From positions 1-64,000 of the forward strand of contig JAUYPV010000005.1 in NCBI GenBank assembly GCA_030697555.1: DNA of 64,000 bases, given 5' to 3'. Each line of letters begins with the position of its first letter. Within the stretch, counting starts at the first letter, position 1. A model generated the notes under the pieces. The model saw only the letters and a list, made by a program, of their open reading frames with translations. It was not told where the DNA came from and ran no database searches. Below, one piece after another: positions 42,031-43,630 of the stretch. This stretch comes from Hyphomonadaceae bacterium (lineage in GTDB: Bacteria > Pseudomonadota > Alphaproteobacteria > Caulobacterales > Hyphomonadaceae). Both the position numbers and the translations under genes were made by a program.

Positions 42031-43305
42031 TTAGTTCGGTGGTCGTGCCACCTTCTTGAGGGTTGCAACATCGTCGGTGGTGAGAAGCGTTTCGGCAGAA
42101 GGTTCAACTCGAAACTTTTTGCGCATTAGCGCTTCAATCTTGGAGCGGTTTGATCGGGCAGCGTCCAACTGATCCTCTGCTGTCCCGCTCTTCGCACCGA
42201 AATGATCGTCGAGTGCTTCCTCGCTGATGGCGCATCGGTGCGGTTGACCGAGCGCGCTGCCTTCGAACCATACAATGTCGCGATCGAAATCATGCTTCAT
42301 CGCAGGCGCCTTGAATGTGATGTCCAATGCTTGATCGAGCGCGTCACGCCATGATTGCCCCCTGCTGTCGGCCTCGGCGAGCGCTTCGTTCAGTTCATAA
42401 GGTCTGGTTTCGGCCAGGGCGGCGATCAGCGCGCGAGCTTGTTCGATGTCCTTTTGCTTCTTCGCGCCAGATCCGCCGCGTCGTTTCTGAGAGACGATGA
42501 GCTTGTGGACCGCATAGCGCTCGGGCCTTGGAAGTTGGATCAGCAGACCCTCCATGTAGGGCGTGACAGCCGGAATGGGGTCGGCGATCAGGAAGTTGAG
42601 ATAGTGCAGGCCCTGCGCCCACATGTTGAGTGCGGCGAGCTTTGCCGGCCTTTGATTTTCTTCGAAGGACGGCGTCAGGAAATCAATCGCGTATTGCGAG
42701 TTCGCGAGCGTCCACGACGTTGGCGTTTTTGGCGTCAGCGAGTTGGCAGGTTTGAACCCAAGCTGCGCGAGCGCACCGGCAAGATCGGGATCGGCAGTAT
42801 CGCCGATCGCCATCGAAAGATGTTCGAAACTGGCTATGTCGATATCGTCGGTGCGGCTGAATAAGTCAGATTCTTCGGAAAGATAGACGCCGAGTTCTAG
42901 GCCGTACTGCTGGAAGGCGTGCGTTCCGACCAGCGTGCCGCCGAGGCGGAAGACGCCACTGTTGGCGAGAACCCGGAGTACGGGGCCGGCCTCACGGCCC
43001 GGCCCGGCAATTCCACCCGCGCGTAGCTGGGCGACGAGGCTTGAGGTGTGTCTGCGGAATTCGGCAATGCTTTGCTGATCCGCGCGCATCCTCTCGATAC
43101 GCTGACGCATTTCTTCAGTGTCGGGGCCAAGATAGCGCTGCTTGGGCGCGCCGCCGGCGGCGGGTCTCTGATTGGCGTACCAATACGTCTTGCCCTTTCG
43201 AACCATTGTGAACGGCGCGCCTTCGAATTCGAAAGCAGGGCGGTTCACATGCATTTGCACAAGGTTCGCGTAGGTTGTCTGGAGGGTGGGAGCTAGTGAT
43301 CTCAT
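42031..43305 (-). CDS. GSU2403-type nucleotidyltransferase fold protein fused to DUF1488
   Basis: 424 aa from ATG 43303-43305. An N-terminal region (TLQTTYANLVQMH, YWYANQ) and a nucleotidyltransferase-like core with FRLGGTLVGTHAFQQYGLEL and the acidic pair in DDIDIASFEHLSM, then helical parts (AVHKLIVSQKRRGGSGAKKQ). The last ~90 residues (DIVWFEGSALGQPHRCAISE, EALDDHF) match DUF1488. The NTase family is related to AbiEii-like toxins; activity here is not shown. Codon use is less GC-biased than neighbours. No ribosome site precedes the ATG; instead two hairpin repeats start 3 bases upstream. Confidence 0.75.
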   Translation of the reverse strand: MRSLAPTLQTTYANLVQMHVNRPAFEFEGAPFTMVRKGKTYWYANQRPAAGGAPKQRYLGPDTEEMRQRIERMRADQQSIAEFRRHTSSLVAQLRAGGIAGPGREAGPVLRVLANSGVFRLGGTLVGTHAFQQYGLELGVYLSEESDLFSRTDDIDIASFEHLSMAIGDTADPDLAGALAQLGFKPANSLTPKTPTSWTLANSQYAIDFLTPSFEENQRPAKLAALNMWAQGLHYLNFLIADPIPAVTPYMEGLLIQLPRPERYAVHKLIVSQKRRGGSGAKKQKDIEQARALIAALAETRPYELNEALAEADSRGQSWRDALDQALDITFKAPAMKHDFDRDIVWFEGSALGQPHRCAISEEALDDHFGAKSGTAEDQLDAARSNRSKIEALMRKKFRVEPSAETLLTTDDVATLKKVARPPN

Positions 43306-43308
43306 ACT

Positions 43309-43387
43309 AGTTGCACTACACGAATAACTCCCGTAGTGCAACTCCGATATGAAGTTGCACTACGCGAGAGACTCCCGTAGTGCAACT
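43309..43387. repeat. two tandem identical-arm hairpins at the NTase gene start
   Basis: AGTTGCACTAC / GTAGTGCAACT occurs as a perfect 11-base inverted repeat at 43309-43319/43333-43343 and again at 43353-43363/43377-43387. Both have 13-base loops ending ACTCCC; repeat period is 44 bases. They replace the normal ribosome-binding region of the minus-strand gene at 43305, and fit an operator or RNA-structure control element. Confidence 0.9.
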
Positions 43388-43505: not shown

Positions 43506-43574
43506 ATGTTGGGGCGGCCTGTAAAGCCATTTGGCATCCTCGTACTCGTAATCGGCTCGCCGCCGGCCCGGTAA
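43506..43574 (+). CDS. ilv operon leader peptide
   Basis: 22 codons from ATG 43506 to TAA 43572-43574. The middle codes for GILVLVIG, six consecutive branched-chain residues (Ile-Leu-Val-Leu-Val-Ile), the hallmark of transcription attenuation by charged tRNA-Ile/Val/Leu. It is followed by an alternative-pairing segment and an intrinsic terminator before ilvB. Confidence 0.88.
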   Translation: MLGRPVKPFGILVLVIGSPPAR

Positions 43575-43587
43575 TTTCCGGACCGAA

Positions 43588-43630
43588 CGGCGAGTGCACG
43601 TCGAAGGGCCCGAGTGGCCCTTTTTCTTTT
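43588..43630 (+). terminator. attenuator terminator upstream of ilvB
   Basis: AAGGGCC (43604-43610) pairs with GGCCCTT (43616-43622) around CGAGT, followed by TTTTTCTTTT. Just upstream CTCGCCG (43556-43562), inside the last leader codons, can pair with CGGCGAG (43588-43594), an arrangement by which ribosome position on the leader can change the downstream fold. Confidence 0.82.

Follow-up and report, generated by a model that had tools for sequence, protein, structure and literature searches.

A PF12281 nucleotidyltransferase gene that probably represses itself through twin palindromic operators and an N-terminal beta head

The gene at positions 42031 to 43305 of the window (the whole 64,000-nucleotide stretch of DNA that was analysed) is best explained as a one-gene self-regulating unit in which a nucleotidyltransferase would repress its own, probably leaderless, promoter by means of an N-terminal beta head; judged from sequence comparisons and a predicted structure, this reading has a probability of roughly 0.7. 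In the proposed mechanism the protein consists of three parts, namely a beta head with its helix, a nucleotidyltransferase domain whose catalytic residues are intact, and a DUF1488 tail that is optional. Two heads, probably those of a dimer, would bind one palindrome with a distance of two helical turns between its half-sites; the operator would overlap both the promoter and the start of a probably leaderless gene, so that the bound protein would shut off its own expression, and a second, upstream copy of the operator would strengthen the binding. From the comparisons described below we infer direct binding, a dimer, repression rather than activation, and a leaderless transcript. The features concerned are the following.

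42031..43305, minus strand: gene of the PF12281 nucleotidyltransferase, coding for 424 aa and a stop, with its start codon at 43303-43305
43081..43224, minus strand: N-terminal beta-beta-beta-alpha head, residues 28-75, proposed operator reader (AlphaFold2 model, operator-predicting residues, hhalign)
42370..42993, minus strand: nucleotidyltransferase domain, residues 105-312 (PF12281 NTP_transf_8 match, invariant residues)
42100..42321, minus strand: optional tail at the C-terminus, residues 329-402, formed by the DUF1488 domain (PF07369 match; Foldseek 2gpi)
43309..43343, no strand assigned: candidate palindromic operator, proximal copy, separated by 3 bp from the ATG
43353..43387, no strand assigned: candidate distal palindromic operator, its centre 44 bp from the proximal centre

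The fusion protein and its twin palindromes

The 424-aa product is a full member of PF12281 (NTP_transf_8, GSU2403 fold group), which it matches over residues 105-312 (E 6e-59) with 200 bits against a curated cut-off of 26.3, covering profile positions 2-216 of 218, and it also matches PF07369 (DUF1488) over residues 329-402 (E 2e-10), the predicted structure of the latter part being matched by Foldseek to 2gpi; these two matches in one product bear out the nucleotidyltransferase-DUF1488 fusion that an earlier note had read from the letters. The nucleotidyltransferase pattern G[GST]...DxD is present and its residues G127, D154 and D156 are invariant in 75 aligned sequences, therefore the protein is probably active as an enzyme; K268, K282 and K285 are further invariant residues of the same domain. 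The ATG at 43305-43303 is supported as the start codon because the helix directly behind it (residues 6-20) is conserved in 75 relatives, in particular at Y12 and L15, and the contrary outcome named in the earlier note, a later start codon with a normal ribosome site, was not seen. PADLOC, NCBIfam, PHROGs and PDB sequence searches gave no useful match, and the literature search found no paper describing the PF12281 NTP_transf_8 family or its operators.

Both 35-bp repeats read AGTTGCACTAC-N13-GTAGTGCAACT on the plus strand, with perfect arms of 11 bases and a 13-base middle that ends in ACTCCC; they are 89% identical to each other and the nearer one is separated by 3 bases from the ATG of the minus-strand gene, in full agreement with the first description of the element. 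Allowing one mismatch at most, the window has 4 copies of the arm AGTTGCACTAC where 0.21 would be expected, and the exact arm has only 4 occurrences in the 4.98-Mb genome, all of them at the twin repeats. The genome search for the 35-base unit, which the earlier note had proposed, returned no copy with up to 3 mismatches beyond the locus; the element is therefore not a scattered repeat. An Rfam search with the palindrome gave only sub-threshold microRNA-like matches.

The palindrome recurs throughout the gene family. Among 149 non-redundant relatives, collected by searches of the order, the class and the phylum, 83% carry a palindrome with a score of at least 8 within 100 nt upstream of the gene, compared with 3.8% of shuffles, 5.4% of in-gene segments and 14.6% of the other genes in the same loci (n=396), while about 17% of the relatives fall below this threshold; at a score of at least 12 the proportions are 31% of relatives versus 0% of shuffles, 0% of in-gene segments and 1.3% of other genes. 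The arm sequences vary by clade (TTACACTAC, TATACCACA, TACCCTACA, TTACCACACA, TTTACCGGCA, GTTATACGCA, GTTGCCACCAC, TTATCCCACA), most relatives that have a single site or a proximal one show its centre about 14-26 nt 5' of the start codon, and an arm is frequently touched or overlapped by the ATG. Twin sites in relatives are mostly spaced 36-68 bp from centre to centre, with modes near 44 and 55 bp that differ by one helical turn, although other spacings occur and the phasing is not clear. Eleven plasmid relatives viewed separately mostly have a similar palindrome (3 of the 11 are without a match at that threshold), and the one on Agrobacterium pAtC58 carries GTTATACTGTTTTT-g-AAAAACAGTATAAC. 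The sequence statistics show that the palindrome belongs to the PF12281 gene family and, within the tested genomes, is confined to its own gene, and the supposed link between repeat and gene family holds.

DNA operator, promoter and RNA hairpin

From a point in one half-site to its counterpart in the other the distance is 19-22 bp in 88 loci and 30-32 bp in 23, the latter mostly in a distant subfamily, and few loci lie between; these two classes differ by one helical turn, which fits two subunits seated on a single face of the DNA. On this pattern the repeats are more aptly called DNA operators than RNA hairpins.

The commonest end point of the best TATAAT-like hexamer is about 8 nt 5' of the ATG (19 of 77), a signal much of which may be supplied by one clade, and an SD-like site is present in 10 of 111 relatives only; a consensus scan recognised no sigma-70-like site at the locus. 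The rarity of SD-like sites and the position of the hexamer make a leaderless transcript of the nucleotidyltransferase gene plausible, and leaderless mRNAs are common in Caulobacter crescentus, where they amount to 375, or 9.6% of CDSs (PMC4117421).

It is unlikely that the repeats act instead as one or two stem-loops of a 5' leader, hiding the start codon or binding the protein as RNA. The predicted fold is very stable (-65.6 kcal/mol, z -7.1), the start codon directly adjoins the arms, RNA is a possible substrate of a nucleotidyltransferase, and the arm mismatches of the relatives, 24 of the G-U type versus 12 of the A-C type, lean weakly to RNA; however, good folding is expected of any perfect palindrome, a spacing quantised in helical turns is not needed by RNA loops, the overlap of ATG and arm in many relatives leaves little space for a leader, and with the hexamer commonly so close to the ATG the hairpin may not be transcribed. 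Of the two possibilities put forward at the outset for an autoregulated locus, twin operator or twin RNA hairpins, the operator stands, probably with autoregulation, and the hairpin is disfavoured by the helical spacing.

Covariation of the operator with the protein

Operator similarity climbs along with protein identity, from 0.43 to 0.89. In genomes with two family members the operators of the paralogues have a similarity of 0.41-0.53 versus 0.46 for shuffled ones, and for 10 of 14 such paralogues the nearest protein relative in another genome has an operator similarity of 0.82-1.0. When the genomes of the TTACCGGCA clade were scanned (n=13), exactly one match was present in 10, and those checked sit at the family gene; in genome G133 an extra perfect TTACCGGCA-type match is a fossil still followed by ~15 codons from the beginning of a lost copy (L204, ~1966-2039), in G269 the matches are at its two family genes with one further weak match, and in G224 there is none. 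The operator sequence is shown by these statistics to track the protein and not the host. Since the usual readers of operators are helix-turn-helix regulators and this protein has no recognised helix-turn-helix domain, a different host regulator might be supposed to read the palindrome; this is less likely still than the RNA hairpin, given that operators are unrelated between paralogues of the same cell but shared with relatives from other genera and families, that no regulator gene recurs alongside, and that the site is at no other gene in the genomes scanned.

Which part of the protein reads the operator was approached by a covariation test, in which alignment columns predicting operator similarity were scored after removing the effect of overall identity, with bootstraps and 200 within-cluster permutations. 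The leading columns are residues 34, 45, 56, 12, 54, 30, 53 and 32, of which 34, 45 and 56 rank among the 15 best in 95-100% of bootstraps, and none of the 200 permutations reaches the effect of region 28-60. The AlphaFold2 model (pLDDT 92.8) has strands at 28-36, 39-46 and 55-61 followed by a helix at 64-75, and the operator-predicting residues 30, 32, 34, 45, 54 and 56 map to this predicted three-stranded N-terminal sheet; in particular, residues 30, 32 and 34 take every second position of one strand, a pattern that a single face of the sheet would give. Statistically, the operator is shown to co-vary with residues on one sheet of the predicted N-terminal head, a covariation that could come partly from shared descent despite the identity correction. 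DUF1488, previously proposed as the binding part, is present in 9 of 75 aligned members, where one clade has TTACACTAC-type and another GTTATAC-type operators, both of which also occur without DUF1488; judged by this distribution, which pairs the domain with two quite different operators and the same operator type with its absence, DUF1488 is irrelevant to operator type and the proposal is not supported.

The modelled head resembles the arm-type domain of integrases (PF13356, 3jtz) in having three strands and a helix, with a conserved W/Y and G aligned over residues 26-60, but differs from it in being fused to a nucleotidyltransferase, in apparently reading a promoter palindrome and in lying below Pfam detection, since PF13356 has no match in the protein or its relatives at E 1 or 0.05. 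The hhalign comparison gives a probability of 48-58% against less than 1% for controls, and in Foldseek 3jtz ranks second for the head, a match that is weak and below usual significance (E 0.37); the head is arm-type-like, not a proven member of the arm-type domain.

Genomic context, likeness to AbiE and significance

By its relatives the genome belongs to the Caulobacter order, close to Hyphomonadaceae bacterium UBA7672. Within the genus six genomes have the gene between miaA and ilvB, and others lack it at that position; one of the genomes without it (G005, locus L175) keeps a solo palindrome, GTTACACTACACGAACCCTTCGTGTAGTGCAG, just after miaA, which shows gene loss and not an untouched site. 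With or without the gene and its repeats, relatives conserve the promoter, leader peptide and terminator of ilv equally well, so the coupling of the element to ilv suggested by the earlier note is not supported. The probable ilvB leader peptide MLGRPVKPFGILVLVIGSPPAR (43506-43574, plus strand), followed by a terminator-like hairpin (43603-43623, plus strand), is a probable attenuator conserved across the genus. This genus-specific ilv context aside, no neighbour or partner gene recurs in 67 divergent loci, among which the PF12281 family is solitary.

The family is present in about 22% of the sampled genomes of the order (65 of 299) and on plasmids (452 records, mostly rhizobial and roseobacter), and has no match in annotated phage records. 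Five relatives on viral contigs exist; the viral-contig members L257, L258 and L259 have ~40% identity, one contig holding two copies. Foldseek against viral structures was uninformative. The patchy presence, plasmid carriage and variable neighbourhoods, together with the likeness of the head to integrase arm domains, could suggest a gene-mobilising unit with the palindromes as its recognition ends, the least likely of the explanations considered, as the palindromes stand at one side of the gene only, the members of the genus share one miaA-ilvB site with ordinary loss and one relative retaining a solo palindrome, and neither the protein nor its relatives have a transposase or recombinase domain.

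The self-repressing unit preferred here can be compared with AbiE, which encodes a nucleotidyltransferase, carries tandem inverted repeats at its promoter and regulates itself negatively (PMC7319586, PMC3985639), and in which a separate winged-helix antitoxin binds two 23-bp repeats (PMC7319586). A nucleotidyltransferase and tandem inverted repeats are found here too, whereas promoter overlap and autoregulation are what we infer; in contrast to AbiE, there is one gene without an antitoxin, and the proposed reader is the beta-sheet head. The AbiEii toxin domain PF08843 has no match in the protein or its aligned relatives, the hhalign probability of the enzyme domain against AbiEii is 0.8%, the shared DxD motif aside, and an adjacent antitoxin gene of the AbiE type does not recur in the 67 divergent loci. 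The locus is an analogue of AbiE, not a member. The model of the product (window 42034-43305) is matched by Foldseek to the AbiEi antitoxin 6y8q (probability 0.91, E 0.12) and not to a nucleotidyltransferase toxin. The same genome (G000; contigs C155, C52 and C75) holds four AbiEii-family (PF08843) loci.

It is a speculation, by analogy with AbiE or MenT toxins, that the reason for tight self-repression lies in a harmful or defence-related nucleotidyltransferase. At even odds stands the broader idea that such genes form a widespread class of self-limiting enzymes, in which an arm-type-like head reads a private promoter palindrome, one protein does what AbiE does with two, and the residue code can be decoded from natural variation. 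The finding would give an undescribed enzyme family a testable regulatory mechanism and a candidate DNA-binding head that is annotated by none of the family libraries used; if the head is of the arm type, a recombination domain would have been reused as a repressor. The clear covariation of protein and DNA makes the proposed recognition code, which sets residues 30, 32, 34, 45, 54 and 56 against the half-site bases, directly testable, and the tight self-control suggests that the activity may be costly or related to defence.
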